The notes beneath the pieces were generated by a model. The model did no database searches and was not told where the DNA came from. It worked only from the letters and a program-made list of their open reading frames with translations. Source: Alcanivoracaceae bacterium (GTDB lineage Bacteria; Pseudomonadota; Gammaproteobacteria; Xanthomonadales; Marinicellaceae). From it: DNA of 64,000 nucleotides. Shown here piece after piece: positions 18,046 through 47,442 of this stretch (positions are counted from its first letter, which is position 1; every line of letters begins with the position of its first letter). Both the position numbers and the translations under genes were made by a program. Where the stretch lies: NCBI GenBank assembly GCA_016744455.1, contig JADGEI010000011.1, positions 12,569-76,568 of the forward strand, written 5' to 3'.

Positions 18046-18507
18046 CTATAGAAAATCTGTGGGTCTGGCCCATTTCCATGTGGCTGACTGGACTTTATAA
18101 ATTTCATCTTCAAGTTTAAAACTGACTTGAAATGTCACCATATCAGCTCGAATTGAGGTCAATATACTGGCACTTTTAATGGGTTTGCCACCCATCGCTG
18201 TTGCGATGGTGACATCAACATTGTTATCATCTATCCAGACGATTTCTTTGACTGTTGAAAAGACATGCAGCGTTTTGTGCCGCATTAATTGTAATTGAAT
18301 AATGCGTTTTATGTCTCGGAGTTTTCTACCTGATTGATCTAGGTAATTTTCGCTAATGTATTCAATTATTCGACTAAGTTTGCGTTCTTCAAAACGATTC
18401 TCCAATTCATCAATTGATTGGAGGAGGATTTGTTCTTTTGTGAGTTGTTGCTCACTGGTGCAAGCATCAAGTAGTAGCAACGATACAATTAATAAAAGGC
18501 TTTTCAT
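18046..18507 (-). CDS. Small lipoprotein, function unknown
   Basis: 153 residues. The N-terminus MKSLLLIVSLLLLDAC is a lipoprotein signal with the modified cysteine at 16 and no Asp at +2 (C-T-S), so outer-membrane sorting is plausible. The mature part is helical at first (QSIDELENRFEERKLSRII) and then beta-rich, resembling small SnoaL/NTF2-like periplasmic proteins in outline, but I cannot assign a family. It starts 4 bp inside the CotH gene's end, so it is co-transcribed downstream of it. Confidence 0.7.
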   Translation of the reverse strand: MKSLLLIVSLLLLDACTSEQQLTKEQILLQSIDELENRFEERKLSRIIEYISENYLDQSGRKLRDIKRIIQLQLMRHKTLHVFSTVKEIVWIDDNNVDVTIATAMGGKPIKSASILTSIRADMVTFQVSFKLEDEIYKVQSATWKWARPTDFL

Positions 18508-20246
18508 TCAAAACTCGAAGCAAATATCACATCTAAATTATTGTTTTCTGAATTAAATGTAACAGTGGTATTGATGAAATCTCCTGTGCCATTGGGTATT
18601 CTTGATAAACTTTCTTCTTTTTCTTGTGTGCTATAGGTGGCTGAATCAATCAACGTACCATCTAAATATGATAGATAAATATTTCCACCATCTTTGTCCA
18701 AGCTAAATTTTGTATGTAAACCAACTTGGTGAGGGTCTTTATCTGCCCAAATAATCAAGTAACCATTCGCAGGAATGACTGCATTTTCTGGAAGTTCCCA
18801 CTTATGAAGAAAGGTATCAGTATCACTTAAAAAATAATTGGCTAATGAGATTGGGCTTGCTGTGTTATTGTATAATTCTATCCAGTCATCAAAATCTCCA
18901 TCCTGATCAAACCATGGACTATCATCATCATTGCGAGCCATGAATTCGTTAACCACTACATCTTGCGGATCAATTGGTGCATTTAATGCTGTACAAACAT
19001 GCCCTTCTTGTGCCATTTCAGCTTCAACAACGGCTCTTCTGTCAATTAAAAACTTCTTCATGCCTTGAGTTCCAGGACCACCAAAGGCACCATTCCATGT
19101 ATCCGCATTAATGAAATTATTCAAATCTACTGTATTAAAAAAATCATTGCTTGAACCCCACTCATTAATGACAAGATTTAATTGACTATCAAGCATAGGA
19201 TAAACTCTTTCACTGGTGTAATTAACCGCTAAAATTTCACACATATAATCCAATATTCTAGTGCGGTAAGCAGGAGTCTCAAAGACTCTTTTGGTGAGAA
19301 CCTTACTTTGATTCATCTGGATTAGCTCCAGATCACCATCGCCTGCTATATTTCTATCAAAGGCAAAGTTATAATCCCATGGTAGCCAGTGCATTTTATC
19401 TATTTTGGGTTCATAATACATATACCAATTTCTGCCATGATCTATATAGGAATCCCAATTGTTAATTAAGAGATCTATTGCTAAAATTCTAAAATATTCA
19501 TCTAGTTCAAAAATATCAGACAATTGATTAGCGAATTCTGTATTTGTTGCTGTGTTTATAAATTCAATAAAACCTAAAAATTTGGTCCAATCATCTTCCG
19601 TTTCGTTTGTCTGTAGTTCAAATGGATAATCGGCCTGTGTATTTCCTGGCGACCACTCTAAGTTTGAATTGCCTTTGTTTTTCCATAGATTTCCGTCATT
19701 ATCGGAGAAATTACGTTTGAGGTATTTTTTATCGACTTGTTCAATTAATCCATAAACACCCCAAAACACATCATTTACATAGATTTTAGCATGTGCAACC
19801 CTAGGCCCAGGTACGCCATGCATTCGGAACATATCATAAGCAAGTTTATCTTTTGCGATGGCTGCATCACCTATCCCATTCATTAAATTAACTTTACGAA
19901 CGCCATCAAAAGTTCTTTCTCCATCGCTTGAAAAAATTCCGAAATTTAATTTAAGTGGTTTTTTTGTTGTGTCTGTAAAAAAATTTGATGAAAAACCTTT
20001 TTGTCTAATTCCAACATCATCCATGCTGGTTCCATCCACAATAACTGTAGCATTGCGGTAAGGTATTTCTACACCATTACTGAGCCAATTTTGATAATCA
20101 TCATCGAGCTGCTGCCAAAAATTAGGGTCTTTCGATGATATCCTTACTTCGTGTAAATAGCTCGTGTCGAATAATGAATATTGGGCAACTACATTTCCAG
20201 ATAAGAGAAGTATTCCTATCAATAAGGTGATCATTATTTTTTTCAT
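18504..20246 (-). CDS. Secreted CotH-kinase-like protein with lamin-tail domain and FE tail motif
   Basis: 580 residues. A signal peptide (about 1-21) is followed by a CotH domain (about 30-330) with IRQKGFSSN, GLIEQVDKKYL and NNWDSYIDHGRNWYMYY...WLPWDYNFAFD, the region equivalent to the kinase active site in CotH. From about 415 there is a lamin-tail-like domain (VVVNEFMARNDD, DDWIELYNN, ANYFLSDTD). CotH proteins phosphorylate secreted substrates in spore formers; in Gram-negatives the role is unknown. The protein ends in VIFASSFE, the tail shared by other secreted proteins in this window. The lipoprotein gene overlaps its end by 4 bp. Confidence 0.85.
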   Translation of the reverse strand: MKKIMITLLIGILLLSGNVVAQYSLFDTSYLHEVRISSKDPNFWQQLDDDYQNWLSNGVEIPYRNATVIVDGTSMDDVGIRQKGFSSNFFTDTTKKPLKLNFGIFSSDGERTFDGVRKVNLMNGIGDAAIAKDKLAYDMFRMHGVPGPRVAHAKIYVNDVFWGVYGLIEQVDKKYLKRNFSDNDGNLWKNKGNSNLEWSPGNTQADYPFELQTNETEDDWTKFLGFIEFINTATNTEFANQLSDIFELDEYFRILAIDLLINNWDSYIDHGRNWYMYYEPKIDKMHWLPWDYNFAFDRNIAGDGDLELIQMNQSKVLTKRVFETPAYRTRILDYMCEILAVNYTSERVYPMLDSQLNLVINEWGSSNDFFNTVDLNNFINADTWNGAFGGPGTQGMKKFLIDRRAVVEAEMAQEGHVCTALNAPIDPQDVVVNEFMARNDDDSPWFDQDGDFDDWIELYNNTASPISLANYFLSDTDTFLHKWELPENAVIPANGYLIIWADKDPHQVGLHTKFSLDKDGGNIYLSYLDGTLIDSATYSTQEKEESLSRIPNGTGDFINTTVTFNSENNNLDVIFASSFE

Positions 20247-20415
20247 ATTAGATAATTACTGTTAGATAAGTCAATCTTACAACACTAGTAGTTAAAGGGG
20301 TGTTAATTTTGTAAGAAATGTATTCTATGTTGATTTGTCAATCATATCAATGACTCATGTTATTTAGGTAAATGGTAGCCAATAGTTTGCTTGCTTTCAA
20401 AGTTAAAAGCCCATA

Positions 20416-20756
20416 GATTCCTGCCTTCGCAGGAATGACGAGGAGTGGTGGATTTCTGCCTTCGCAGGAATGACAGGAAATTGTGGATTCATGGTTTTGC
20501 GGGAATGACGAGGAGTGGTGGATTCCTGCCTTCGCAGGAATGACGAGGAGTGGTGGATTTCTGCCTTCGCAGGAATGACAGGAAATTGTGGATTCATGGT
20601 TTTGCGGGAATGGCGGGGAATGGTGGATTCCTGCCTTCGCAGGAATGACGGGAAATTGTGGATTCGTGGCTTTGTGGGAATGACGGATAAAGTTAAATTA
20701 CTGTACTTAGCATAATAACAATAACACGTCATTCCCGCGAAGGTGGGAATCCATTG
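20416..20756. repeat. 35-bp tandem palindromic repeat array, copy 1, with shared tail
   Basis: Eight head-to-tail units of exactly 35 bp run from 20416 to 20695. Each contains the inverted core TTCCTGCCTTCGCAGGAA or a variant with TTCATGGTTTTGCGGGAA. Units 1-3 and 4-6 repeat almost exactly, so there is a 105-bp higher period. A unique-looking tail (20687-20756) ends in an oppositely oriented copy of the core (CGTCATTCCCGCG). There are no spacers between units. The array begins right after the stop of the GIY-YIG gene when read on the minus strand. Confidence 0.9.
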
Positions 20757-20757
20757 T

Positions 20758-21048
20758 TTAAAGTATCTCAGGCCATAAATCATTCCATTGAGGGTTGTCT
20801 TTTTCAATTAGATTTATTTTCCACTGCCTTTTCCATTTCTTCATTTGTTTTTCTCTAGTAATTGCAGAAATCATGTCTTCATGTTGTTCGAAATATACCA
20901 ATTTATCAATTTCATATTTTTCAGAAAATCCTGCTACTAGTTTTTTCTTATGTTGCCATGTTCTTTTGACCAAGTCGCTTGTTACTCCAATGTATAAGGT
21001 TCCATTCTTTTTGTTTGATAAGATGTAAACGCATGGTTGTTTGTTCAT
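20758..21048 (-). CDS. GIY-YIG domain nuclease-like small protein
   Basis: 96 residues with the GIY-YIG fold: VYILSNKKNGTLYIGVTSDL supplies the two Tyr motifs (VYI and LYIG), R29 follows in LVKRTWQHK, and YEIDKLVYFE and AITREKQMKKWKR complete the domain, with the usual catalytic Glu in the latter region. This is the small stand-alone UPF0213-like class; its biological role is not settled. It is flanked immediately on both sides by 35-bp repeat arrays with the same tail, so the gene and repeats may have spread together. Confidence 0.9.
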   Translation of the reverse strand: MNKQPCVYILSNKKNGTLYIGVTSDLVKRTWQHKKKLVAGFSEKYEIDKLVYFEQHEDMISAITREKQMKKWKRQWKINLIEKDNPQWNDLWPEIL

Positions 21049-21062
21049 TATAAATACCTATG

Positions 21063-21370
21063 GATTCCTGCCTTCGCAGGAATGACGGGAAATTGTGGAT
21101 TCCTGCCTTCGCAGGAATGACGGGAAATTGTGGATTCCTGCCTTCGCAGGAATAACGAGGAGTGATAGATTCCTGCCTTCGCAGGAATGACGAGGAGTGA
21201 TAGGTTTCTGCCTTCGAAGGAGTGATGGGGAATGATAGATTCATGGTTTTGCGGGAATAGCGGGGAGCGATAGATTCATGGCTTTGCGGGAATGGTGGAT
21301 AAAGTTAAATTACTGTACTTAACAGAATAACAATAACACGTCATTCCCGCGTAGGCGGAAATCCATTGTT
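21063..21370. repeat. 35-bp tandem palindromic repeat array, copy 2, with shared tail
   Basis: Seven units of 35 bp occupy 21063-21307, with the same core as copy 1; units 5-7 are more decayed. The tail from 21297 to 21370 matches the tail of copy 1 at nearly every base and lies exactly 612 bp away from it, in the same orientation. On the minus strand it starts at the icd stop codon and ends 14 bp before the GIY-YIG start codon. Confidence 0.9.
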
Positions 21371-21371
21371 T

Positions 21372-24096
<2,725 letters not shown>

Positions 24097-24786: not shown

Positions 24787-24927
24787 CTGTTCATAATTAT
24801 TCACATTAGTAAAAATATCAATTTCAATCATTGCTAGAAACGATAGTTAGATGGCAATCTTTGTCAATTAATAACATACCTTGTGACACTGATGGGTGAG
24901 ATCTGAGAACGCATAATAACATTGCCA

Positions 24928-25020: not shown

Positions 25021-25081
25021 GTATGTGAGTATTAAAGTGATGGGCGAGCCCCATCTTACATGTGGGTTTGTTGGCATTAAA

Positions 25082-25109: not shown

Positions 25110-25127
25110 CAAGTATACAACAAGTAT

Positions 25128-33919: not shown

Positions 33920-34354
33920 TTATATAATTGATTTCTTGATTTTTGTACTAAACAGGATGGCAATAAATAGAAACAATAACCAATGAAATTGATTAACAGG
34001 GACTACCTGAACATTTATTCCAGTTAAACACGTAACAGTGATAGCAACAGTTGCGGTGGAATTGCCTGTTAGCGTATAGGTGAAATCATCAGTGTTAATA
34101 CCATTGTTGCAATAACCATTGTTTGCTTGATAGGTCATGCCAAATAACTCTAAATTCACGACTCCATTTGCTGGTTGAGTAAACATTGTTACTGTATCTC
34201 CTTTATCAATAGTGTCATTAGCAAATACATCAATGATAGCAGCCGGGCTATTCTCTATCACGCTAAAGTCATCATCTACTGCAATTGCAGCGACAACTAT
34301 TTGAGTTATAAAAACCAATAGTAGTGTGGTTATAATACGTATCTTAATATTCAT
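33920..34354 (-). CDS. Ig-like/cadherin-like domain protein with C-terminal membrane anchor (CTERM-like)
   Basis: 144 residues from the ATG at 34354, chosen because a GAGGTAA ribosome site lies just upstream and the signal peptide begins there (MNIKIRIITTLLLVFITQ); the open frame extends nine codons further. The middle (AVDDDFSVIENSPAAIIDVF, then QPANGVV and FTYTLTG) is a bacterial Ig/cadherin-like unit of the Big_9 kind. The end VPVNQFHWLLFLFIAILF plus a Lys-rich tail has the short motif, helix and basic cluster of IPTL-CTERM-like sorting tails. First of a two-gene unit with the beta-helix gene. Confidence 0.75.
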   Translation of the reverse strand: MNIKIRIITTLLLVFITQIVVAAIAVDDDFSVIENSPAAIIDVFANDTIDKGDTVTMFTQPANGVVNLELFGMTYQANNGYCNNGINTDDFTYTLTGNSTATVAITVTCLTGINVQVVPVNQFHWLLFLFIAILFSTKIKKSII

Positions 34355-34595
34355 AATTACCTCATGATTGTTAATTTGCATTCATAAGATATGTATCGTG
34401 TTTATCTGAAAATTTTCCTTAAAAAAGGTAATCAACTATACAAAGTGTGATTAAGGTCTCATTTCAAGAATGATAAAAAACCCCAATCAAGGCTGAAAGA
34501 GAGTTAAATAGTGTGCTATTTATGAGTTTTTTAACGCCTAGCGGATTTTTAAAAACTTTTTTACAACATGCTTCATGAGTTGTGCAAAGGTCTCC

Positions 34596-37500
34596 TTAAT
34601 GCCGTAATGAAGAAGGGCTTTTTCCAAAATATTTTTTAAAGGTACGTGAAAAATAGGATAAAGAATCAAATCCTGTACCATAGGCTATTTCGCTTATTGT
34701 TAATTTATCATCAATAAGTAAATTTTGGGCATGTAACATTCTAATATCACGAATAATCTTAGTGGGTGTTTTTTTAAATTTGGTGTTACATTTTCGAAAC
34801 AATGAGGAAGGACTCAGGTTTAACTCATTTGCAATATCATCAACAGATAAATTAGGGTTCGATAATTGCTGTGTCACAAATGCATTAAAATGAATGGTAA
34901 ACTCATCATTTTTTGACATCTGTGTTGCTTCTTGAGAGAATGAAAGCTTAATCGTTTGTCTGATAAGCTTACGGTTATTTATCAAGCCTGCTACACGCAT
35001 AATTAACTCTGATGTATCAAAAGGTTTGCTCAAATAATCATCTGCACCTGTCTGCAACCCTTCAACAACTTCACGTTTACTGGATTTTGCTGTGAGTAAA
35101 ATAATTGGAATTGTGTTGGTTGATTTATTGTTTTTCAGTTGTTTAGCCATTTCTAAACCATTCATCACTGGCATCATAACATCGGATATAATTAAATCCG
35201 GTAACCCTATTAATGCAGCTGACAATCCCTCTTTTCCATTATGTTTTTGAATGACATGATAATAACTTGATAAGCGACTAGCAATAAAATCACATAACTC
35301 TATATTATCATCCACCACTAAAATGGTGGTGATATCATCTTGCGAAGTACTGTTTTCTTTTATCAATGGTTTTGGTAATTCTATTGGAATGCTTGGTGTT
35401 TTGACATCACTGTTTATTGGTTCATAAAGTTGCTCAGCATCAAAATGTGACTTACCTTGTTTCAGCCATAGTGAAAATTTGCAACCTGTGCCTATATTAT
35501 TTTCAAATTCTACCGTTCCGTGATGTAATTCGATAAGTTCTTTCACTAATGACAAACCAATACCAGTACCAGCATCACTGATGGCTTCAGATTGTTGGTC
35601 TTGGTAAAATCTATCAAACACTTTATCTTGTGATTCTTGTGAAACTCCTTTGCCTGTATCACTTACTCTTAATCCAATTTGTTGTCCTTGTTTTATTATT
35701 TCAAGTGTAATTTCACTTTTGTTTCCAGAATATTTAATCGCATTTGAAATCAAATTGGATAAACATTTGTCTATTTGCTCTTGATCACAATAAAGCAACT
35801 TGGGTTCTTGTGTATTTTTAGTGTTGATAATTTGTTGATTCTTCTGTGCCCACAATCTAAACCGAATAGCTAATTGATTGAGCAAATCTGCCACATCGTA
35901 TTGAGCAATTCGCAATGGAAAACGCCCTGATTCTAGTCGGTTAAAATCTAATATTTGCCCAACCAATGATAACATTTTTTTAGAATTGGCAATTGAAGTC
36001 TGAACGGGGCGAGACAGTCGTTTCTCGAGATTGGGGTTGTCAAGCAACATACTTTCTAACGGTGCGATAGCAAGTGTCAATGGCGTTCTAAATTCATGTG
36101 AAACATTGGCGAAAAAGCGAATTCTAGCTTCATCTAATTGATGTAACTCTTCGGCTTGTTTTTCAATAGTTGTGGTACGTTTTTTTACCAAACCTTGTAA
36201 ATGTTTATTGCGTTTTTTGATTTGATGTGTACTAATTTTGCTAATTATATAGATTATAAATGCAGTTAATAATACTGCTAGTAGTTTAAACCATAAAGTT
36301 TGGTACCAATATTTAGCAACTTCAAATTTGAAATTAAATTGGTTAATTGCCCTATCTGAATTTCCAGAATATAAGGTTAATTCATGGGATCCACCTGAAA
36401 TATTAGAATAATTTATACTGGTATTGCTTGACCAATTAGTGCAATTTTCACCTGATAAACAGGTTTTAAATTGTGCACTTTTAGTTTTTGCAAAATCAGG
36501 ATAACTAATGTTAAATTGTATATCGTGTTGATGCAAAACTGTCGTTGTATCCATTGGCAACAATTTTTTTCCTAATTGAATGCTTTTAATTCTTGGTGTG
36601 ATTGCAGGCATAAGTTCTATATCTGAATTGATGGAAACAATACCACTATTTTGGATGAGGTAATTGATATTTTGTTCGTCAAAAAACATATTTAAAGTTA
36701 AATCTGGCGATAAATAATTACTCAAAGCACGATTGGGGTTTTCAAAACTTTTATCAGCGAATGTTTGCATAGATGATTTTGTAGAAAGCCAAAATCTACC
36801 TTGCTTGTCTTGTTGTAACAATTCAATTTCAGAACTAATATCAAGTTTTTTAAATTGTGAGAATTTATTTGTAGTAGAGTTAAAGTTAAAAAGTTGATTA
36901 TCGTAAGTGGCAATTAATCCTTCTGAGCTGGGAAAAAGTCTAGTCTTGAATTGAGGAGTGTGATTTGGGATTGTGTAAGTTTTATAACTGTATTCATTTA
37001 ATTGATTAAATTCTTCAATTTTTAGAATATCTCCAGTACTCAAACTCAACCACAAATCTTGTTGGTTTAATGCAAATGAAACCACATCATGCTGAAATTC
37101 TTCTAGTAACTGATAAGACCATTTGTTATCACTAAATTGTAAACGAGCTATGCCATTTTTGAGGCGAAGCAAAAACTCATTATTATGCCAATGCGACTTT
37201 ATAATTTCTTCTACGGTGATTTTATTTTGAATTATTTCATGGCTAAAAACATATGGTAATTGACTGAAATCAATGTTCACCAATACAATACCAAAATAGC
37301 CCACCACCAATAAGCCATTAATTTCACTATCAATCATAGACTGTAATTGATTGAATGCAAAATCATAATGTTGAAATTCGCCTTGTGAGAAAATTGCAAT
37401 GTCAGAAAAAGATAAACCAAGCAAATGATTTTTATAGCGAATAATAGTGTTGATTTTTTGTAAACCCAAGTTCTTTTTGTCAATGCGTAATGATAAAGGC

Positions 37501-38483
37501 GATTGGATACGGCTCATTCCACGATTAAGGCTACCTACCCACAAGCCATCTTGGTTATCTGTTGTTATTCCAATACTGATTTCATTCGGCAAACCATGTT
37601 CTTTACTGATATTGAAAACGTTCTTTCCATCATAAGAGACAAACACAACGCCCTTGGTAACTGTAGCAACAACAAAATAATCTTTGTTGTATGGCATGAC
37701 ATCATAAATCCAACTATCGGTTAAAAATTCGCCTCCAACTGTATTCCATTTACTAAATTTATCTTCCTTTAAATAGACATTATTTTTACTGAAAACCATT
37801 TCACTTTGTGGAGTTTGGATGGTTTCAATGACATTGATGCGCTGATTATTTGCATCAGAAAAAAACGATATTTTTACTAAATTATCATATTTATCTATTT
37901 TTAAATTAAAATTTACACTAGAAAAATACAATTGTGAATCATATACAAAAACATCCTTTATTGGAGAGTCTTCGATATATTGCCATGCTTTTATGCTATT
38001 TTGTTTACCTAAACTATTAGTGTTTAATCTAAACAACCAATGACTTGCAACAAAATAAACCGAGTCTTCAAATACAAAGACATTATAAACTTCATCAAAA
38101 TTTTTATCCGGCACATCACTTGTATTACTCAGTTCATGGTAGTGTAATTGCCCGTAGATGTCTGCTTTTAAATAACCAAAACTATTTACCGAACCAGCAT
38201 AAATTATGCCATTCTTATCTTTTTTCAGAGACCTAACCGCACCGAGGTTTGGCGTTTTGATTAATCTCCATGTCACACCATCATATTCTACAACACCATT
38301 GCCATTGCCTGTGTATAGATTGCCATCATCCGCAATTATCATCGACCAATTGTGCTCATGTGCTTTATAAACATGAGCTGGGTAATAGTCAATAATCGGC
38401 TTACCAAAAGACAAATTATCCTTAAGCGTATTGCTCAAGCCACTTAATGAAAATAGCAATAAAAATAGTATTAAATATTTCAA
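34596..38483 (-). CDS. Hybrid two-component system protein: sensor propeller, kinase, receiver, AraC output
   Basis: About 1295 residues. A signal peptide (MKYLILFLLLF) leads into two-component propeller repeats, a Y_Y_Y domain (about 640-720) and a membrane helix near 735-757. Then come HisKA with the phospho-His in VSHEFRTPLT (near 794), HATPase, a receiver domain (VVDDN, phospho-Asp in LIISDVMMP near 1100) and an AraC-type helix-turn-helix at the C-terminus (DDIANELNLSPSSLFRK, ISEIAYGTGFDSLSYFSRTF). Signal sensing and DNA binding are in one polypeptide, as in Bacteroides HTCS. The frame extends to 38642, but that part translates a dispersed repeat, so I prefer a TTG start at 38483. Divergent from the FG-GAP gene. 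Confidence 0.88.
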   Translation of the reverse strand: MKYLILFLLLFSLSGLSNTLKDNLSFGKPIIDYYPAHVYKAHEHNWSMIIADDGNLYTGNGNGVVEYDGVTWRLIKTPNLGAVRSLKKDKNGIIYAGSVNSFGYLKADIYGQLHYHELSNTSDVPDKNFDEVYNVFVFEDSVYFVASHWLFRLNTNSLGKQNSIKAWQYIEDSPIKDVFVYDSQLYFSSVNFNLKIDKYDNLVKISFFSDANNQRINVIETIQTPQSEMVFSKNNVYLKEDKFSKWNTVGGEFLTDSWIYDVMPYNKDYFVVATVTKGVVFVSYDGKNVFNISKEHGLPNEISIGITTDNQDGLWVGSLNRGMSRIQSPLSLRIDKKNLGLQKINTIIRYKNHLLGLSFSDIAIFSQGEFQHYDFAFNQLQSMIDSEINGLLVVGYFGIVLVNIDFSQLPYVFSHEIIQNKITVEEIIKSHWHNNEFLLRLKNGIARLQFSDNKWSYQLLEEFQHDVVSFALNQQDLWLSLSTGDILKIEEFNQLNEYSYKTYTIPNHTPQFKTRLFPSSEGLIATYDNQLFNFNSTTNKFSQFKKLDISSEIELLQQDKQGRFWLSTKSSMQTFADKSFENPNRALSNYLSPDLTLNMFFDEQNINYLIQNSGIVSINSDIELMPAITPRIKSIQLGKKLLPMDTTTVLHQHDIQFNISYPDFAKTKSAQFKTCLSGENCTNWSSNTSINYSNISGGSHELTLYSGNSDRAINQFNFKFEVAKYWYQTLWFKLLAVLLTAFIIYIISKISTHQIKKRNKHLQGLVKKRTTTIEKQAEELHQLDEARIRFFANVSHEFRTPLTLAIAPLESMLLDNPNLEKRLSRPVQTSIANSKKMLSLVGQILDFNRLESGRFPLRIAQYDVADLLNQLAIRFRLWAQKNQQIINTKNTQEPKLLYCDQEQIDKCLSNLISNAIKYSGNKSEITLEIIKQGQQIGLRVSDTGKGVSQESQDKVFDRFYQDQQSEAISDAGTGIGLSLVKELIELHHGTVEFENNIGTGCKFSLWLKQGKSHFDAEQLYEPINSDVKTPSIPIELPKPLIKENSTSQDDITTILVVDDNIELCDFIASRLSSYYHVIQKHNGKEGLSAALIGLPDLIISDVMMPVMNGLEMAKQLKNNKSTNTIPIILLTAKSSKREVVEGLQTGADDYLSKPFDTSELIMRVAGLINNRKLIRQTIKLSFSQEATQMSKNDEFTIHFNAFVTQQLSNPNLSVDDIANELNLSPSSLFRKCNTKFKKTPTKIIRDIRMLHAQNLLIDDKLTISEIAYGTGFDSLSYFSRTFKKYFGKSPSSLRH

Positions 38484-38610
38484 ATTGAAAAGCTCTGTAA
38501 CTTTGATCCTGTTGTTTATATTATGTTTGGGGTTATCAAAATGTATTTTAACATAGAAATTTAGAAGCCTGAAATATAGGAAGTTAAGATCCTTGAGACA
38601 TATAATAATA

Positions 38611-38700
38611 CAGTCATTGCGAGGAGCTCTGCGACTCGACAATCTCCTAAATCTGCCGTCATTCCCAACAGATTGCCACGCTCGTTCCTCTTTCGTAATA
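38611..38700. repeat. Dispersed imperfect inverted repeat (REP/MITE-like)
   Basis: A roughly 90-bp element with ends CATTGCGAGGAG and, inverted, CTCTTTCGTAATA, and inner arms CGACAATCT and AGATTGCCA. This form (starting GTCATTGCGAGGAG and carrying GCAATCT arms) is a familiar bacterial intergenic repeat. Only one copy is in the window. Confidence 0.7.
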
Positions 38701-38846: not shown

Positions 38847-40517
38847 ATGCTTATGAGGTTATTTGCTTTTTTATTACTACTTAACTTTAATGCCATAGCC
38901 GGGGGCGGTAATTGGTTTGAGATTGGAGATGCACCCAGTTTTCCTGACGGGCAAGCACAAGTCACTAGAGGACAAGGGTTATTAACTACTCTTTCTGGTG
39001 CAACAACTGCCACGATAGACCGCAGAGATTCCTACTGTATCAAAATCACTGATCCTGACAACTTTAGAGCCACAACAGATGCCAATAGTGACCCACTGGC
39101 TTCAGCCACTTTCGATACACGTTTGTATTTGTTTGATAAGCGTGGCACACCTGTTTTGTATAATGATGATACAGTCAATAATACAGCTCCATTTCACTCA
39201 ACCATAACGGGTACTGCAAGCGATGGTTCTAATTTTGTCTTATCCCAAGGCGGCGAATATGTTTTGGTTGTGGGTGGGTTTTCAGATGATGCTTTTGACA
39301 ATAGTGTTAATAATGTATTTAATACTACAGGTAACAGTAGTTCGATAAATGCGGCAAATTCTTCAGCAGGGCATTTTAACACTTGGGAAAATGGCAACCC
39401 AAACACAGGAGATTATACACTGGCATTACAAGGAATTAGTTTTTGCCAAGATAAATTAGATATCATAGGTACGGGAGTAAGCTTAACCAATGACAGTCAA
39501 ATGTGTATAGGTGATGGAGAAGGAGGCTTTACTAGTTGCAATAATGATAGTATTGATACGGCAAAAAAGCAAATTGTCACGGGTTATCTTGATAGTGATG
39601 CGCACCTAGATGTTATTTTTGATAAGTTTGATATCGAAGATCCAACTATTTGTTTAGGCAATGGAAATGGCGGTTACCAATCATGCTCTCTTTATAACGA
39701 TGTAGCAAACATTAATTCTGATACTCCTATACTGGGCGACATCAATAACGATAGCATTACTGATGCGGTATTTATTGTCGATTCTGAAAATCATAAAGCT
39801 TGCTTAGGTGATGGTTTTGGTTCTTTTATCAATTGTACCGATATTTCAAATACAGATTCAACATATGCCAACGGTGCACAATTATCCTATATAGATGCCG
39901 ATAATAAACTTGATTTAATTTTTACAACATTTAATCTAATTACGCTCAGTAGTACACATATTTGTTTAGGGAATGGCTTAGGTGGGTTTAATGCTTGTAT
40001 CAACGCCAGTATAGATGCTAGTGTATTTGAAGTTGCTGATTTTAATAATGATGGTAGCAGCGATATTATTGCTCTAAAAGGGCTTGGCATTCCCAACAAT
40101 ATTTGCCTCAACAATGGTTCGGGCGGATTTAGCTGTAATAGCATAAGTGCCTCAACAAACAATTCGAAAGGAGTTGCTATCGGTGATTTAAACAATGATG
40201 GAAATTATGATAGTGTCATTGCCAATTTCTTTGGTCTTAATCAGGTCTGTCTAGGTGTTGGAAATGGGACTTTTAATTGCAGTAATGTCAGTGACCTAAC
40301 AGGGAATTATACGGCTGTAAAACTGGGCTTATTAAATGATGATAACTTTTTGGATGCCGTATTTGCTGGTAATAATAGTTTCACCCAGACATGTTTGGGT
40401 AATGGTGATGGTTCTTTTAATAACTGTGTTACTGATACCAGCCTTGATTTTTTTGATATTGAATTAGGGGAATTTGGGGAAGCTCCTAATGAGTTGTTTT
40501 CCGATGGGTTTGAATGA
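38847..40517 (+). CDS. Secreted seven-repeat FG-GAP protein with paired cysteines and FE tail motif
   Basis: 556 residues. A signal peptide (1-18) precedes an N-terminal beta domain with DTRLYLFDKRGTPVLYNDD and GGEYVLVVGGF, like secreted pre-peptidase C-type domains. Residues about 219-530 hold seven units each with a C-[LI]-G-x-G-x-G-x-F-x(1-2)-C signature and DLNNDGNYD-type calcium-like loops, as in VCBS/FG-GAP propellers. The Cys pair inside every unit could form a disulfide. It ends ELFSDGFE. Two start codons (38847 and 38853) are possible. The tandem half-sites at 38758-38795 lie upstream. Confidence 0.85.
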   Translation: MLMRLFAFLLLLNFNAIAGGGNWFEIGDAPSFPDGQAQVTRGQGLLTTLSGATTATIDRRDSYCIKITDPDNFRATTDANSDPLASATFDTRLYLFDKRGTPVLYNDDTVNNTAPFHSTITGTASDGSNFVLSQGGEYVLVVGGFSDDAFDNSVNNVFNTTGNSSSINAANSSAGHFNTWENGNPNTGDYTLALQGISFCQDKLDIIGTGVSLTNDSQMCIGDGEGGFTSCNNDSIDTAKKQIVTGYLDSDAHLDVIFDKFDIEDPTICLGNGNGGYQSCSLYNDVANINSDTPILGDINNDSITDAVFIVDSENHKACLGDGFGSFINCTDISNTDSTYANGAQLSYIDADNKLDLIFTTFNLITLSSTHICLGNGLGGFNACINASIDASVFEVADFNNDGSSDIIALKGLGIPNNICLNNGSGGFSCNSISASTNNSKGVAIGDLNNDGNYDSVIANFFGLNQVCLGVGNGTFNCSNVSDLTGNYTAVKLGLLNDDNFLDAVFAGNNSFTQTCLGNGDGSFNNCVTDTSLDFFDIELGEFGEAPNELFSDGFE

Positions 40518-40612
40518 AATGTAAAATTATTAAAGGGTGATTATTTTTGATCTAAAGTATCTTCAACAGATTGTTGCTCCATTTCTCCTGATCATGATGA
40601 GCTTTTATGTAT

Positions 40613-40651: not shown

Positions 40652-40704
40652 AAACAAATCTGTACCCATTGTTAATATATAACAATTAGATTAAAAGAAG
40701 AATT

Positions 40705-43700
40705 ATGATGAAAAGCAATATTTTTACAATACTTATATTTATTCTGTTTAATAGTTATTCCCAAGCTAACTCATTGAAACAGCACTTTAGTCAACTGAGT
40801 GTAGAGGGTATTCAATATTCTGATAGTCAGAACCTTTTAAATAGGAGTGGGTATCACGCAATTGGGGGCAATAATTTAACGGCCGAAAAATATGCTCAAA
40901 ATGTTTACATCAAAGCATCAAATACTGAGGCAAATGATCAGTTTGGTGGTGCAATAGCATTATCTGGCAACACCTTAGTGGTTGCTGCGAAATTTGAAGA
41001 TTCAGATGGTTCTTCACAAAGCAATAATTCTGCGTTTAGTGCAGGTGCAGTTTATATTTTTATTCGCGTTAATGATGTATGGCAACAACAAGCCTATTTA
41101 AAATCTGAAAACATTGAAGATCAGGACAGTTTTGGAACAAGTGTAGCAATTTCTGGAGATACTATTGTCGTTGGTGCGCCTACTGAGGATGGAGATTCAT
41201 CATCTGCAATGGGCGCTTACAACAATAACGTTTCCAATGCAGGAGCTGCTTATGTTTTTGTGCGTAATGGCACTAGTTGGTCTCAACAAGCTTACCTCAA
41301 AGCAAGCAATGCTGATACTGGAATCAGTGATAATTTTGGGCAAGCGGTCAGCATCTCTGGAGATACCGTAGTAGTTGGTGCTTTTGGTGAAGCCAGTAGT
41401 GCAACAGGAGTTAATTCTAATCAAGCACTAAATAATGCTTTAAATGCTGGTGCTGCTTATGTTTTTACGCGTTCAAGTACAACTTGGTCACAACAAGCTT
41501 ATCTTAAAGCCTCAAATACACAAACTGGTGATAATTTTGGTATTTCTGTGGCCATCTCTAACAATACCATTGTTGTTGCAGCAAGAAGCGAGGATGGTGA
41601 TGATAGTGGAACACAAAATAGTAGCGGTGCAGTCTATATTTTTCAACGAAATGGCACTAGTTGGAGCCAGCAAGCTTTATTAAGAGCAGATAATGCTGGA
41701 TCAGGTGATGTCTTTGGATTTTCTTTGGGTATTTCAGGAAACACCATTGTGGTTGGAGCTAGAGGCGAGAAAAGCACATCGACGGGTATAAATTTTGCCG
41801 ACAATGATAATGGTAGTGCAGTAGGTGCTGTCTATATTTTTCAACGAAGTGGTTTAACTTGGGCACAACAAGCCCGAATAAAACCCAGTTTTACCAATAA
41901 CAGTGATTTTTTTGGGCAATCAGTAGCAATATCTGGTGAAACTTTGGTGGTTGGTGCTATTGGCGAATCCAGTGATGCAACCGGTATTAATGGAGAGGCT
42001 GATAACAACAATTCAAGCGGTTCAGGGGCTGCTTATGTATTTACTCGCCGCAATGGTATTTGGCAACAACACAGTTTCATAAAAGCCTCAAACTCGGATG
42101 ACAACTGGAAAACTGGCAGTTCAGTTGCGGTATTTGGTGACTTGGTTGTCACGGGTGCAAGAGAAGAATCCAGTGATGCAATAGGTATTAATGGCGATCA
42201 AAACAATACAAATGCCAGTGATTCAGGCGCAGTCTATGTGTTTAATGATATTAGCTTGAGTAAAAGACAGTTTGATATCAATTTAGCTATTCCTGATGAT
42301 GACAGCAATGGCTTAACTATTGATTTAGATCTTAATGGGCTCTTTAACGAAAATATTTTAAATTTAGAAATTGCCCTTGATATAAACCACAATGCTATCG
42401 GAGATTTATCAATTGAAATAATTGCACCCAATAATATAGCCCATCTTGCCATTATGTCTCGCACAGGCATGACAAGTACTGGGTTAAGCACATTTGGCGC
42501 AGAATCTAGACTAGTTGGGGTTTATCATTTTAGTGATTTAGCAGGAGAAGATTTATGGCAATCTGCTTTAGGTGTTGCCAATGGTGAATTGATAAACCCT
42601 AACAGATATCGAACCAGCACCAAAGGCAACAATTTTAGCCAATATGGCGGTTGTACAACACGCTTAAATGGTGCGTTTGCTGGATTAACTCCGACACAAA
42701 GTAACGGAATATGGACATTAAAAATTTCTGATAATGCTAACGCTATTACAGGATTTATCAATAGCGTTGAAATTATAACTCGCCAAGAAATTTCTGAGGT
42801 TATTTTTAGTGATGGCTTTGAGCCTTCTGCATCTACCCTAAAAGGAACGGCCGTTCCTGTGTTTGCTGCCTTTCCAGATATAACGGCATCAGATGTTCCT
42901 GGCGATTGTATAAAAGCCCAGTTTGATTATACAGGTACAGGCTTAAGTGATTATGTAACCACTTTTACAAACTCTGTTACTCCAGGTATCACAGATGTAA
43001 ACTATCAAATAAAGCGAAACAATGGCACCCTAACCGATACTGAAGAGTTGATAACTTTTAGTGCCATTAGTAGCAATCCTGTTGTAACCAGTGGTGGCGA
43101 TTTTGATGGTGATGGCATTGATGATATTATTTTGCAAACAGATGTTAATTTTGCTGATTACTTTATTCGTAGATCTTCACGCCCCAATGATTTACCTGTG
43201 TTTTTTAATGGTGGGCCTATACAGGCAGGTCGTTCTATCGACTTACAGATTGGTGACTATAATGGCGATGGTTTAGATGATATTGGATTTTTTAGATCAG
43301 ATTTCAACATCAATGAACAATCAATGTTTTTCGGATTTAATATTGCTTCGGGAGAACAATTACTTTTCAATTATTCTCTAAATTCAGGTATAGCATCGGA
43401 TTTTAAACCGTCGGGTGGGTTTGATCATAATGGTGATGGCAGTGCGGATTTGTTATTACTAAATAAACAACCAAATGATATGTATTTAACCCTGGTCTAT
43501 GACGGCAAGACAGGTAATCTATTATTTGACTCAACAGGGTTGGCACTTACCACACCAGTTCGCAGTGTTTCAGGTATCTATTTAGATAATGGAAATTCTG
43601 GAATCAGTACAATATTTGGTGATGAGTCAGGTGGCGCAGTAACGTATCAATTTTTTGATGAGAATAACAATCTGGCATTTTCTAGCGAGACTATTTCCAC

Positions 43701-43896
43701 CTTAATCCAAGATATATTGTTAAGTGGCGATTACAATGGCGATGGAAAAGATGATGCAGGAGTATGGCGTCCAAATTCAGATGGGTTGGGCAATCGATTT
43801 ATTATAACCCCAACTAATGGTGATCCTATTATCGAATACCTACCCTCTAGTGTATCCAATGTAGATTACCCAATCGCAAATACTCGAATTAGATAG
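40705..43896 (+). CDS. Large secreted FG-GAP/P-domain protein with an internal FE motif
   Basis: 1063 residues. A signal peptide (about 1-22) precedes seven or so units of the form FG.SVAISGDTIVVGA...GAAYVF.RNGTSWSQQAYLKASN (about 60-515), an integrin-type beta-propeller. Residues about 522-690 form a P-domain-like beta sandwich (FDINLAIPDDDSNG, GDLSIEIIAPNN). VIFSDGFE follows at about 699-706, but here it is internal. The last 357 residues are a second VCBS/FG-GAP-like module (GDFDGDGIDDIILQTD, GDYNGDGKDDAGVWRP). The protein reads as a normal tail-bearing protein to which a further module was added, or as a stop-loss fusion. Upstream half-sites suggest control shared with the 38847 gene. Confidence 0.87.
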   Translation: MMKSNIFTILIFILFNSYSQANSLKQHFSQLSVEGIQYSDSQNLLNRSGYHAIGGNNLTAEKYAQNVYIKASNTEANDQFGGAIALSGNTLVVAAKFEDSDGSSQSNNSAFSAGAVYIFIRVNDVWQQQAYLKSENIEDQDSFGTSVAISGDTIVVGAPTEDGDSSSAMGAYNNNVSNAGAAYVFVRNGTSWSQQAYLKASNADTGISDNFGQAVSISGDTVVVGAFGEASSATGVNSNQALNNALNAGAAYVFTRSSTTWSQQAYLKASNTQTGDNFGISVAISNNTIVVAARSEDGDDSGTQNSSGAVYIFQRNGTSWSQQALLRADNAGSGDVFGFSLGISGNTIVVGARGEKSTSTGINFADNDNGSAVGAVYIFQRSGLTWAQQARIKPSFTNNSDFFGQSVAISGETLVVGAIGESSDATGINGEADNNNSSGSGAAYVFTRRNGIWQQHSFIKASNSDDNWKTGSSVAVFGDLVVTGAREESSDAIGINGDQNNTNASDSGAVYVFNDISLSKRQFDINLAIPDDDSNGLTIDLDLNGLFNENILNLEIALDINHNAIGDLSIEIIAPNNIAHLAIMSRTGMTSTGLSTFGAESRLVGVYHFSDLAGEDLWQSALGVANGELINPNRYRTSTKGNNFSQYGGCTTRLNGAFAGLTPTQSNGIWTLKISDNANAITGFINSVEIITRQEISEVIFSDGFEPSASTLKGTAVPVFAAFPDITASDVPGDCIKAQFDYTGTGLSDYVTTFTNSVTPGITDVNYQIKRNNGTLTDTEELITFSAISSNPVVTSGGDFDGDGIDDIILQTDVNFADYFIRRSSRPNDLPVFFNGGPIQAGRSIDLQIGDYNGDGLDDIGFFRSDFNINEQSMFFGFNIASGEQLLFNYSLNSGIASDFKPSGGFDHNGDGSADLLLLNKQPNDMYLTLVYDGKTGNLLFDSTGLALTTPVRSVSGIYLDNGNSGISTIFGDESGGAVTYQFFDENNNLAFSSETISTLIQDILLSGDYNGDGKDDAGVWRPNSDGLGNRFIITPTNGDPIIEYLPSSVSNVDYPIANTRIR

Positions 43897-44070
43897 AATA
43901 AGAGGTGTTCTAAAATTGCATTGATGATTTATTTTACTAAGGGTCATTTTTAACAAAATGTGATGAATCTCTCAATTTGACCGTAATTTAAATCAAATTC
44001 AAATATTAATAAAAAAATAAGGAAAATAAAACGAACTAGTAAGCAAGATTAATTATATTTGGAGAAAACC

Positions 44071-45735
44071 ATGAAAAACATTTATTTATTATACTTGTTA
44101 GTATTTAACCCTTGTTTTGTTAATTCTAAAGACTTAAGTTTTTATAAAAGTTTTATTAATCAGGTCAATCATGCCATCACAAGTAGTGCGATTTGGAACC
44201 TTGATACTATCAACATAATTGGTGAATCAGATTCTATAGATAGGTTGGGAGAAGCCGTTTCACATGGTGACTACAATGGCGATGGTATTGATGATTTAGC
44301 TATTGGTATTCCAAACTATGACTTCCAACTGTTTAATATAACACTTAATAATACTGGAACTGTGTTAATCATCTATGGGTCTATAAGTGGTCTTTCGACA
44401 TCAAATGAGCAATTCCTTTTTCAAACATTTGAAACTGAGCCACCTAACTTAGAGAATTTAAATGGTGTTGAAGAAAATGACTTTTTTGGAAAGTCACTTG
44501 CCAGTGGTGATTTCAATTGCGATGGCTTTACTGATTTAGCCGTTGGTACTCCTGAAGAAAGCGTCACATTTGGTGGAGAAGACAGGAACAATGTAGGAGC
44601 AGTTAACATATTTTATGGATCAGATGTAGGCTTTGCTGATTTAGGTGCTGGATCAACTTTTTTACTACAAGGCACTGGATTGGGAATATTTTTTGATGGC
44701 AGTATCTCAGCAGGTGATAGGTTTGGTTGGAGTATGACTGTTGGCACTTTTATTGATGGTGCTGTTGGGACTAATAGTTGTTCTGATTTAGCCGTCTCAG
44801 CTCCATTTGAAGACTTTGGAATCTCTAATTCAATTGCTGATGGCGGGCAAGTCGAAGTATACTATGGTAGTGTTATAGGTCTTTCCGGAGAACCTGATTT
44901 CAGAGACTCTTTGAGCCAACAATCTGATGACATACCTGGATCTGCTGCAGAAAGCGGAGACCAATTTGGGTTGAGTTTAGCAGCTGGTGGCTTTAGACTT
45001 GCATCCAACCAGTTTGAAAGTTTAGTTGTTGGTATTCCTGGAGAAGATACTGATGGCATCAGCAACTCAGGGGCTGTACAAGTGTTTCATAGTTCGATCA
45101 CTGGATTAGATCAAACCAATAGCAGTGAAATCTGGTCACAATCTGGTACTGTAATTGGAATTGTAGAAGTCAATGATAGATTTGGGTCTTCTGTTGCAGT
45201 GGGTGACTTTGACCATGACACTATAGATGACTTGGTCATTGGTGTACCCAGAGAAGACATCAATGCTTCAGGTATAAATGATGCTGGCTCTATTAATATA
45301 ATTTATGGCAGTACATTCGGATTATCTGATGCAACAAATCAATCTTTTCACCAAAATACGACCAACTTACTTGGTACGGCTGAAAACTCAGATCAGTTCG
45401 GAGATGTTTTGGCCGTTGGTGATTTAAATAATGATAACTTTGATGACCTTGTTGTTGGTGTACCTCGTGAAAACAGCTCAAGCGGTGCATTTCATGTCCT
45501 TTATGGTTCTAGTGATGGTGTTAGTACTGATAATAACCAGTACCATACAAACAATTTTAGCCCATTGGATGAATTGGGTTATGCAATAACTATTGCAAAT
45601 TTTGGCAATAGTCCTGAAATTGCTGTTGGCATTCCTGGGGATGATATTTTTCAAGGAAATAATGATGTAGGTTCTGTTGAAGTTTTTAATTTTGTATTAC
45701 CTGAATTAATGTTTTCAGATTCATTTGAGGATTAA
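44071..45735 (+). CDS. Secreted FG-GAP integrin-alpha-like protein with FED tail motif
   Basis: 554 residues from the ATG at 44071; a GGAGA ribosome site sits just upstream, and the signal peptide begins with this Met (MKNIYLLYLLVFN), so I reject the TTG four codons earlier. Repeats such as VSHGDYNGDGIDDLAIGIPN, GDFNCDGFTDLAVGTP and GDLNNDNFDDLVVGVPRE are FG-GAP propeller blades with Asp-rich calcium loops. It ends in ELMFSDSFED. The beta-helix gene follows after 3 bp, so the two form an operon. Confidence 0.88.
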   Translation: MKNIYLLYLLVFNPCFVNSKDLSFYKSFINQVNHAITSSAIWNLDTINIIGESDSIDRLGEAVSHGDYNGDGIDDLAIGIPNYDFQLFNITLNNTGTVLIIYGSISGLSTSNEQFLFQTFETEPPNLENLNGVEENDFFGKSLASGDFNCDGFTDLAVGTPEESVTFGGEDRNNVGAVNIFYGSDVGFADLGAGSTFLLQGTGLGIFFDGSISAGDRFGWSMTVGTFIDGAVGTNSCSDLAVSAPFEDFGISNSIADGGQVEVYYGSVIGLSGEPDFRDSLSQQSDDIPGSAAESGDQFGLSLAAGGFRLASNQFESLVVGIPGEDTDGISNSGAVQVFHSSITGLDQTNSSEIWSQSGTVIGIVEVNDRFGSSVAVGDFDHDTIDDLVIGVPREDINASGINDAGSINIIYGSTFGLSDATNQSFHQNTTNLLGTAENSDQFGDVLAVGDLNNDNFDDLVVGVPRENSSSGAFHVLYGSSDGVSTDNNQYHTNNFSPLDELGYAITIANFGNSPEIAVGIPGDDIFQGNNDVGSVEVFNFVLPELMFSDSFED

Positions 45736-45738
45736 GCC

Positions 45739-47442
45739 ATGAATTATACCTTTAAAGAGTGTTACACAACTCAGGAACAGTGGATAAACAGAGTGCTAAA
45801 CAGCTCACTATTTGCAAAGCAATCATTTAATAAGTATTTAATTATTTTGATGTTAATTTTTCCCTGTGTCAGCCAATCCACAGATTTCTATGTTTGTGAC
45901 TGTGAAGATGGTTCAGCAATTGCGTGCGTAATTGGCGATGACAATAATGATGGTAGCTTAGCTAACCCTTTCCGAAGTTTGACAAAAGCCAACCAAACAT
46001 TTAACACGGTATCCGCGGGAGATTCAGTCAATTTTTGTAAAGGTGGAGCTTGGTCAACATCAAGTAATCTACGCTGGGTTAACCCAATGTGCCAACATGA
46101 CAATAGGTGCCTAATTTCAGATTACACATCACTTTGGGCAGTTGGCGATGAGCAGAAACCACTCATAAACTTTCTAAATGGAGTACATGGTTTCAACCTA
46201 TCTGATAGTGGCAATGCTGAGCACGAAGAAGGTTATACCATAGAAAACTTAGATCTAAGGGGTAGCAATGATGGTGCTGGTGTACTCATTGCCAATGATG
46301 TTGATGATGTGATTTTGAATAATTTATCGATTTCAAATTTTTGGTTTGGTGTAAATTTAGCCTCCTCCAATGATTGCAACCCAAACGATCCTTCATGTGA
46401 TGGAAAAAATGACCGCATTACTTTAAAAGAGAGTGCAGTTCAATTCAATGATGTCCAAGGTTGGTTAGGAAGCTCAAATGATGTCGAAATACTAAACAAT
46501 TATTTTTCTGACAATGGTTCAAGAAGCCTATTTGATCACAATATTTATATTAGTGCTTCATCTCATGAAGTGACCAATGGAATAGTAATTAGCGGTAATG
46601 AACTCTATCGCAACACCTTAGATGTCGATGGCATGTGTTCTGCCGTTTCATTAGTTGTACACGGCCAACATGACACCATGGTTATTAAAAACAATAAAAT
46701 TTGGGAAGACGAAGGTACAGTTTTGCCAGGTTGTTGGGGTATTGCTATAGATAACGGCCATTCTGAGCCAGAAGGGTTTACCAATATTTTGATTCAAGGC
46801 AATAACATTATCAACGTAGGGCGAGTTGGAATTGGTGTAGGTGCTTGCGATAATTGCGTCATTGAGAACAATATTATCAGCAATACCCAAGAACTAGCTA
46901 CACGCGCAATTCTTGCTCCTGATCGAAGTTTAGGGCCGGGTGATTTACCATTAGACAATATTACTGTTCGTAATAATTCAATTTACATTAGCAATGCTCA
47001 AGGCGGTACTGGGGTTACCGTTGGCGAATCTGGAAATAACCATATCATTGTGAGTAATGCCATACATTATACAGGGACCTCCAATTCGTTTAATTGTCTC
47101 GATGTCGATCTTCCTACTTCAAATTATTTAGCTATTGACAACAATATATGTTTTACACCAAGTGCCAACAATGCTGAATGGGCCAATAACTTTGGTAACT
47201 TATCTCAATGGCAACAAAGCTCTGGCTTCTCAAATAACTCAAGTGAATTAAACCCTGGTTATATGGACCCCACAAATAATTTATTTATGGCAGAAAATCA
47301 AAATGCAGCAATCGTCAACTCTGGACATGCTTTATTAAGTTCCCTATGCGATTACCAATGTAGGCCCCGAGACGCAAATCCCGACAGTGGTGCTTATGAA
47401 TGGGTATCTGGAAATCTAATATTTACTAATGGATTTGAGTAA
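45739..47442 (+). CDS. Secreted right-handed beta-helix protein with FE tail motif
   Basis: 567 residues. A hydrophobic signal begins about residue 31 (NKYLIILMLIFPCVSQS), preceded by an unusually long basic/polar N-terminus, so a later start is possible. The mature part has DGSLANPFRSLTKAN, typical of a right-handed beta-helix start, and repeats such as VIKNNKIWED, NILIQGNNIINV, CVIENNIISN and ITVRNNSIYI of PbH1/NosD type. It ends LIFTNGFE. Located 3 bp after an FG-GAP gene. Carbohydrate binding or cleavage is possible for this fold, but no catalytic residues can be assigned. Confidence 0.83.
   Translation: MNYTFKECYTTQEQWINRVLNSSLFAKQSFNKYLIILMLIFPCVSQSTDFYVCDCEDGSAIACVIGDDNNDGSLANPFRSLTKANQTFNTVSAGDSVNFCKGGAWSTSSNLRWVNPMCQHDNRCLISDYTSLWAVGDEQKPLINFLNGVHGFNLSDSGNAEHEEGYTIENLDLRGSNDGAGVLIANDVDDVILNNLSISNFWFGVNLASSNDCNPNDPSCDGKNDRITLKESAVQFNDVQGWLGSSNDVEILNNYFSDNGSRSLFDHNIYISASSHEVTNGIVISGNELYRNTLDVDGMCSAVSLVVHGQHDTMVIKNNKIWEDEGTVLPGCWGIAIDNGHSEPEGFTNILIQGNNIINVGRVGIGVGACDNCVIENNIISNTQELATRAILAPDRSLGPGDLPLDNITVRNNSIYISNAQGGTGVTVGESGNNHIIVSNAIHYTGTSNSFNCLDVDLPTSNYLAIDNNICFTPSANNAEWANNFGNLSQWQQSSGFSNNSSELNPGYMDPTNNLFMAENQNAAIVNSGHALLSSLCDYQCRPRDANPDSGAYEWVSGNLIFTNGFE

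Follow-up and report, generated by a model that had tools for sequence, protein, structure and literature searches.

A short C-terminal tail that looks like an address label on otherwise unrelated exported proteins

Tripartite CTERM signals are described as short C-terminal regions common to unrelated signal-peptide proteins, occurring many times per genome and restricted to certain lineages (PMC3237569; PMC11980579). Substrates of type II secretion systems (T2SS) are said to share no linear sequence (PMC7949064). In this work we describe the tail F-x-[ND]-[GS]-F-E, found repeatedly in a 64,000 bp stretch of DNA (the window) from an Alcanivoracaceae bacterium of the GTDB family Marinicellaceae (GCA_016744455.1; contig JADGEI010000011.1, positions 12,569–76,568). 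It resembles an address label, of a type that seems not to have been described before, and is borne by about eighty otherwise unrelated exported proteins. A literature search (motif letters, C-terminal sorting, CTERM, GspC PDZ, T2SS tails; open library only) returned no published description of it.

With the tripartite CTERM signals (LPXTG/sortase, PEP-CTERM/exosortase, GlyGly-CTERM/rhombosortase, MYXO-CTERM/myxosortase) the tail shares the many-to-one pattern on signal-peptide proteins, but it has neither a transmembrane helix nor a basic cluster, and the motif itself forms the protein end (61 of 100 copies end at the motif and 80 within three residues of it). An earlier note on this DNA had for the same reason assigned the tail to a different class, which holds; the note also saw no processing enzyme in the vicinity, in agreement with the open reading frames (ORFs) and Pfam matches of the window that were examined, a subset of the ORFs having been scanned. 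Like the C-terminal domain of the type IX secretion system (T9SS; Por secretion signal), the tail would be a C-terminal sorting element on Sec-exported extracellular proteins, with endonuclease I among its carriers. T9SS signals are folded domains of about 70–100 residues, whereas the tail has only 6–9 residues (about 18–20 in a long form described below) and is predicted to be disordered, with a predicted local distance difference test score (pLDDT) below 50. Since it fails the testable defining features of both classes, we file it under neither. Nine proteins of the window, of which seven contain the motif, gave no NCBIfam match on a tail (E up to 1), and neither did four in-frame long-tail C-termini (E up to 10; a fifth stretch, L286, was out of frame), although the HMMER filters may lose matches as short as these.

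Among T2SS with a PDZ-bearing GspC (Eps, Out), PDZ dependence of some substrates is described for EpsC and VesB (PMC12369372). One of the two T2SS loci of the genome studied here, called type A, likewise encodes a GspC with T2SSC and PDZ domains together with GspD, GspE and GspF; a linear C-terminal tag shared by substrates would be new for T2SS. The other locus has the layout of Xps of Xanthomonas (xps E-F-G-H-I-J-K-L-M-N/C-D), with an XpsN/C-like protein lacking a PDZ match. XpsC of Xanthomonas is described as having a single helix in that region (PMC11981180).

Occurrence of the tail and its carriers

The genome of the window (3.62 Mb in 47 contigs; G000) was searched with the codon pattern TTYNNNRRYRGNTTYGAR, which stands for F-x-[DNSG]-[GSR]-F-E. 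It gave 100 matches against seven for the reversed pattern; with a stop codon added, 61 matches were found and none with the reversed pattern. All seven copies reported for the window, six C-terminal and one internal, were verified in its sequence, and the tail occurs far above chance frequency in the genome. An origin by chance, or as an artefact of a common compositional ending, can be regarded as already refuted by these reversed controls and by the counts in other orders of the class, where each of 364 genomes has only 0–3 tails.

All 100 matches were read, the 95 outside the window in 77 DNA stretches. The stop codon follows the motif directly in 61 of them, after one residue in 15, after two in three and after three in one, which gives 80 C-terminal copies, two of them tiny non-genic chance frames. 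The other 20 comprise 13 copies at least 50 residues from the frame end or the stretch edge and seven at 5–36 residues from a stop. Because the codon pattern is blind to serine TCN codons, the window tails at 18504 and 44071 are outside the 100. A looser pattern, F-x-x-x-F-E-stop, gave 134 matches against 93 reversed, an excess that adds little information.

The sequence logo was derived from the C-terminal matches with at least 16 residues (78 of 80, with L021 and L032 excluded and the chance frame L062 still included) and reads [DE]-x-[ILVM]-F-x-[ND]-[GS]-F-E. Both F and the E are set by the search pattern and the two middle positions are restricted by it (N 53, D 21 and S 4 at -4; G 62 and S 16 at -3), while positions -9 and -7 were free; they hold [DE] in 51 and I, V, L or M in 75 of the 78 tails, respectively.

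Several internal copies lie at apparent module borders or directly behind the signal peptide. In three proteins (L004, L033, L046) the motif is located 86–88 residues before the C-terminus and is followed by a similar-looking domain (FEDVVIVKTA.../FEDVVIFKST.../FETTVVLFKS...), as if a module had been appended behind the tag. Three other loci (L019, L026, L049) have a similar tailed C-terminal region (DGV/DGQEYPPAG.P.SDPL...); contigs C10 and C17 end with it, C34 has it in its interior, and C13 starts with a tail fragment (L021). Probably a multi-copy tailed gene broke the assembly here.

According to a crude predictor, a signal peptide is present in 68 of 74 complete tail proteins of at least 100 residues and in 60 of 150 neighbouring ORFs (Fisher p 9e-15), as well as in 9 of 12 proteins with an internal motif. 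Among the six misses at least one (L041) starts with a signal peptide evident by eye. The 74 tail proteins match 60 Pfam families (E up to 1e-5), none of which has more than four carriers, and their mean column identity is 6%. Among the 25 of these families that were listed are subtilases (S8), M14 and M28 peptidases, endonuclease I, CotH, the lamin tail domain, FG-GAP, beta-helix, propellers and InlB-type repeats. The carriers are thus unrelated apart from the signal peptide, as the earlier note had proposed, and the three fold types that it counted proved to be many more. We consider the tail to be almost certainly a genuine C-terminal tag of exported proteins. Four loci (L009, L018, L040, L047) encode a family of exported proteins of about 95–130 residues (SGG...IGQ.DA......Y.L..GFW) ending in the tail; such small carriers would be handy as natural tail reporters.

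The tail-bearing genes of the window are listed below (window positions).

18504–20246, minus strand: CotH kinase and lamin-tail-domain protein (PF08757, 2.1e-54; PF00932, 7.9e-16) with a signal peptide; tail VIFASSFE, motif bases 18507–18524
29355–32009, plus strand: secreted protein of 884 residues that matches no Pfam family (E up to 0.1); tail EIFMNSFE, motif 31989–32006
32015–33907, minus strand: protein of 630 residues with Chlam_PMP/POMP-type repeats; tail EMFLDGFED, motif 32021–32038
38847–40517, plus strand: FG-GAP_3 repeat protein; tail ELFSDGFE, motif 40497–40514
40705–43896, plus strand: protein of 1063 residues with FG-GAP_2 repeats, a P-domain-like stretch (554–579), an internal FSDGFE (motif bases 42805–42822) and a weak FG-GAP_3 match
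44059–45735, plus strand: protein with FG-GAP repeats, with an ATG at 44071; tail LMFSDSFED, motif 45712–45729
45739–47442, plus strand: protein with a weak right-handed beta-helix match under the family cut-off; tail LIFTNGFE, motif 47422–47439

The internal FSDGFE of the 1063-residue protein occupies residues 701–706, 357 residues ahead of the C-terminus and between two modules. Adjoining one of the tail genes, at 33920–34381 (minus strand), is a gene for a Big_9/cadherin-type protein of 153 residues, whose C-terminus ...FHWLLFLFIAILFSTKIKKSII consists of a hydrophobic stretch and basic residues and resembles a tripartite CTERM signal. Judging by this C-terminus, a second, conventional surface-sorting pathway may exist alongside the tail. 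Among the tail genes there is also a 1348-residue hybrid two-component regulator (34596–38642, minus strand; Reg_prop, HisKA, HATPase, receiver, AraC HTH).

The tail on endonuclease I and in different lineages

With the domain and tail of endonuclease I as the query, 471 relatives were found in GTDB genomes, and the endings of the best 80 of them were analysed. In nine the domain is followed at once by the short tail, and seven have a longer one. Another 19, including those of Xanthomonas, Lysobacter, Oleiagrimonas, Thermomonas and Chiayiivirga, stop without the motif within 25 residues past the match; 40, including two from Marinicella, continue into other sequence and also lack the motif at their end; and five are cut by the end of the locus. 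On this enzyme the tail thus behaves as a unit that is either there or missing. Not every copy is tagged even in tail-rich genomes, as the untailed endonuclease I of Chiayiivirga, Marinicella and Lysobacter CAU 1642 demonstrates.

AlphaFold models of endonuclease I, built on alignments of 24 and 17 sequences, have a mean pLDDT of 80.7 and 69.6, respectively. In the model with the short tail the domain is confident (block means mostly 79–96), while the last ten residues fall below 50 and form a coil; the tail is below 50 in both models, the long form included. The models suggest a disordered tail on this enzyme, and because the alignments are shallow the prediction is suggestive only. Of the two results that the earlier note had named as refuting its idea, neither occurred: the counts above exclude chance frequency, and a last strand of one common domain does not agree with the absence of any Pfam family shared by more than four of the 74 carriers, with this predicted disorder or with the existence of untailed relatives.

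The long-tailed enzymes come from Acidobacteriota (L243), Thermoanaerobaculia (L247, L251, L312), Holophagae (L258, L286) and Deltaproteobacteria (L288). Their tail begins with the same core and extends over about 18–20 residues in all (in short, LFxDGFESG[DN]TSAWSxTxP); the consensus of 33 long tails, selected for the presence of W, is [LI]-F-x-D-G-F-E-S-G-[DN]-T-x-A-W-S-S-[ST]-x-P. The core is abundant in the seven genomes with such an enzyme (G663–G669, Acidobacteriota-type and deltaproteobacterial MAGs; 99, 195, 143, 33, 63, 130 and 100 copies against 4, 9, 3, 0, 2, 8 and 2 for the reversed pattern). Five other Acidobacteriota-type genomes gave 21/6, 10/7, 31/1, 4/1 and 2/0, four Krumholzibacteriota and Planctomycetota genomes 2–7 copies, one genome each of Xanthomonas and Lysobacter three and one of Thermomonas none. 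In two of the rich genomes 26 copies were read, spread over 20 stretches; 22 of them belong to tails that contain W and reach a stop 9–14 residues past FE, and the other four are not such tails or run on. Tails of the DGFESGDTSAWS type are present in databases.

The number of tails (pattern and stop) was determined in 369 genomes of the class. The window genome has 61 (reversed 0), G367 of the same order six, and all others 0–3. A survey of 299 genomes of the order revealed 80 with 4–69 tails and 0–3 in the remainder. The tail-rich genomes (at least four tails) include nearly the whole family of the window, except for G375 with none and one genus with 1–3. Elsewhere in the order they belong to the small families f184–f188, f191 and f192, to f2 and f3 (two and four genera, respectively) and to part of f189 and f190. 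The remaining genera of f2 and f3 have 0–1 tails. Thus, the tail is a lineage trait.

Co-occurrence with a second type II secretion system

Both prerequisites of a T2SS substrate, signal peptides on the carriers and a T2SS in the genome, were found. GspD profiles revealed two GspD types in tail-rich genomes, and in a tree of 67 GspD sequences types A and B form separate deep clades (supports 0.77 and 1.0), the A side also including, as distant members, one Thermomonas, one Xanthomonas and one Xcs-like sequence. As a marker, GspK proved uninformative (PF03934, a model of 63 positions, matches short and very long ORFs in most genomes), and GspD was used instead.

The type-A operon of the window genome (L174) consists of gspC (T2SSC and PDZ), an alpha/beta hydrolase gene, gspD (Secretin and N0 domain), gspE (T2SSE) and gspF (T2SSF), so that the core genes for GspC, GspD, GspE and GspF are all present by Pfam; two ORFs downstream of gspF are presumably FtsE- and FtsX-like. 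Within 20 kb around it neither a pseudopilin gene (G–K) nor a gene for the platform proteins L and M could be recognised (8 of 17 ORFs scanned with Pfam). Prepilin-like ORFs are present at the second locus (L175), and sharing of pseudopilins between the two systems is possible. The xps-like layout of L175 was assigned by eye, on the basis of the sizes of the ORFs and of prepilin-like starts; its GspC (XpsN/C-like) gave a weak T2SSC match and no PDZ match. In 17 of 18 further type-A loci gspC, gspD and gspE are located side by side (gspE was not found in L183), and gspF was traced in 11. The hydrolase gene between gspC and gspD, together with a small gene before gspC (L174, 10776–12777, minus strand), was observed in the genus of the window (G000, G384); no similar hydrolase or small gene was found in the other type-A loci read.

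The Xps-type GspD occurs in tail-bearing and tail-less genomes alike, which argues against an explanation of the tail by T2SS in general. As it does not discriminate, only the type-A operon is of interest. The 299 genomes surveyed for tails were also searched with a profile of 20 type-A GspDs, and the two results were compared at a threshold of four tails. Most type-A matches scored above 820 bits; five genomes with partial matches at contig ends were counted as positive and 19 with Xcs-like matches (450–566 bits) as negative. Type-A GspD was found in 73 of the 80 tail-rich genomes and in 43 of the 219 others, leaving seven tail-rich and 176 tail-poor genomes without it (Fisher p 1e-30). In genomes at least 90% complete the corresponding numbers are 58 and 26 with type-A GspD and four and 161 without. 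The association holds after stratification by family (Cochran–Mantel–Haenszel p 9e-17) and is driven by f2 (2/2 versus 0/76; p 3e-4) and f3 (10/10 versus 3/66; p 3e-10). All these p-values are too small because the genomes are not independent samples. G375, the member of the window family without tails (100% complete, two contigs), has no GspD match. Three further tail-rich genomes, those of Tahibacter soli (96 core copies), Pseudomarimonas arenosa (52) and Lysobacter sp. CAU 1642 (24), have type-A GspD at 925–932 bits. The earlier note had proposed a search for a co-occurring transporter; co-occurrence points to this second T2SS operon, elsewhere in the genome, as the candidate.

A number of observations weigh against a link between the tail and the type-A system. 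Taken singly, f1, f189 and f190 show no significant association (p 0.10, 0.10 and 1.0). Of the seven tail-rich genomes without a type-A match, six are 60–96% complete and at least three are in 460–530 contigs; the seventh, G461 (98% complete, 80 contigs), has eight tails, at least one of them on a real long protein, and no type-A GspD even at 1e-40. Conversely, 43 genomes have type-A GspD with fewer than four tails, 27 of them from one genus (f190 g282; 0–1 tails), which means that the apparatus has other work; in G421 the sole tail match is a 17-codon chance frame, so this genome has type-A GspD and no tail of this pattern. In the Thermomonas genome, which lacks the core altogether, a GspD scores 623 bits and thus falls between type A and the Xcs-like matches. 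The seven genomes with long-tailed endonuclease I (33–195 core copies) lack type-A GspD (best match 145 bits), which refutes it as a universal partner of the tail outside the order; the reader in these Acidobacteriota-type genomes must differ or be shared at another level. It is also possible that tail and operon were inherited and lost together and that nothing links them directly in the order; the comparison covered few gene families.

The shape of the PDZ loop of GspC follows tail number only imperfectly. Tail-rich lineages mostly have a GVRL-like loop, and that of f189 and f190 is shorter, but G481 (20 tails) and G516 (14 tails) share the short loop of their tail-poor relatives, and the loop is not claimed as a determinant; in this alignment the GspC of G638 was not usable and that of G620 was incomplete. 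No convincing recurring neighbour was found in 20 stretches around tail genes of six tail-poor genomes, the neighbours that recur there reflecting shared synteny of the close relatives G502 and G526 and weaker protein-family matches of 24–48% identity.

Possible role of the tail and alternative explanations

The sorting, secretion or anchoring role suggested in the earlier note is supported by these data; the function itself is what we infer, and we consider it very probable that the tail acts as some form of signal for sorting or docking. It can be hypothesized that F-x-[ND]-[GS]-F-E-COOH, mostly after [DE]-x-[ILVM], is a C-terminal sorting tag of Sec-exported proteins. The carrier would fold in the periplasm with the flexible tail protruding, and a dedicated export or surface-sorting apparatus would recognise this tail and direct the protein to secretion or surface display. 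In Xanthomonadales/Lysobacterales the apparatus would most likely be the second T2SS, gspC(PDZ)-gspD-gspE-gspF; for the proposal that the tail works with the type-A system in this order we estimate a probability of about 0.5. The most economical reader would be the terminal PDZ domain of the type-A GspC, or the secretin. Binding by the PDZ domain itself is, in our opinion, a doubtful proposal: the acidic -FE end is unlike a canonical PDZ ligand, and so are the one to three extra residues after the tail in 19 of the 80 C-terminal copies. The copies within proteins (13 of 100 at least 50 residues from the end or stretch edge) are a further point against the proposed sorting tag.

Instead of serving export, the tail might fix proteins to the surface. 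It would then be the orphan first beta strand of a carbohydrate-binding-type jelly roll. Whatever the route of secretion, it would afterwards insert into a receptor at the surface, or into a matrix domain, lacking that strand. Such docking would tolerate the residues past FE and the internal copies at module borders, and would account for the long-tail genomes without type-A GspD. The long tail F-x-D-G-F-E-S-G-[DN]-T-x-A-W-S resembles the start of such domains. The only match of one long tail among PDB sequences, and the seed of the strand-addition idea, was xylanase C (4xup), at LSHSFEEGTTQGWT near its start and again at ALFKADFEDGNIGNWR, sites which we take to be the first strands of CBM22-type carbohydrate-binding modules. 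With E 4.2 this match is not significant, no receptor was encountered (none was looked for), and docking leaves the co-occurrence with type-A GspD in the order unexplained; we regard it as unlikely. Alternatively, the tail might be processed by a sortase- or legumain-like enzyme, with cleavage at [ND]-[GS] and ligation of the resulting C-terminus to an amine at the surface. This idea was prompted by the [ND]-[GS]-F core, which is similar to an asparaginyl ligase site, and the residues at -4 and -3 would suit it within the limits that the search pattern sets on both. Such processing is quite improbable, given that residues past FE are tolerated and that the membrane helix of LPXTG or PEP-CTERM is missing. 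The legumain or asparaginyl-ligase variant was dropped because Peptidase_C13, the one protease family tested, is absent from all eight tail-rich genomes of the window family tested; it is present in 11 of 23 tail-bearing genomes tested.

That the tail is a functionless relic of a lost C-terminal domain, copied along with genes for secreted proteins, would fit its distribution along lineages, and the longer form in other phyla implies that shortening or extension took place. Linkers and codons vary from gene to gene, however, and yet the residues at -7 and -9, which the search left free, are kept (75 and 51 of 78); together with the unrelated carriers this makes a mere remnant very improbable. 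The sorting and docking ideas may be combined in a widely spread, hitherto undescribed sorting code with tens to nearly 200 tags in each tag-rich genome, in which the short tag alone is used in Xanthomonadales/Lysobacterales and a tag with the -SGDTSAWSxTxP extension in Acidobacteriota-type bacteria. The tag would act as an orphan jelly-roll strand that is captured in the envelope through strand addition, and in one order the PDZ domain or secretin of an accessory T2SS would be its binding partner. We offer this scheme as a speculation with rather low odds; if true, it would provide the first linear substrate signal for type II secretion.

The choice of substrates by T2SS is a long-open question, and here is a tail that can be read from sequence, deleted and grafted, with a candidate machine and with cultured species in the order (Marinicella litoralis, Marinicella sediminis, Tahibacter soli, Chiayiivirga flava). 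The tail would also aid annotation of the exported proteome in these bacteria. Even if the link to type II secretion fails, the tag, which several phyla carry in dozens to nearly 200 copies per genome and which, among the copies read, mostly closes an exported protein, provides a handle on an undescribed sorting or anchoring pathway.

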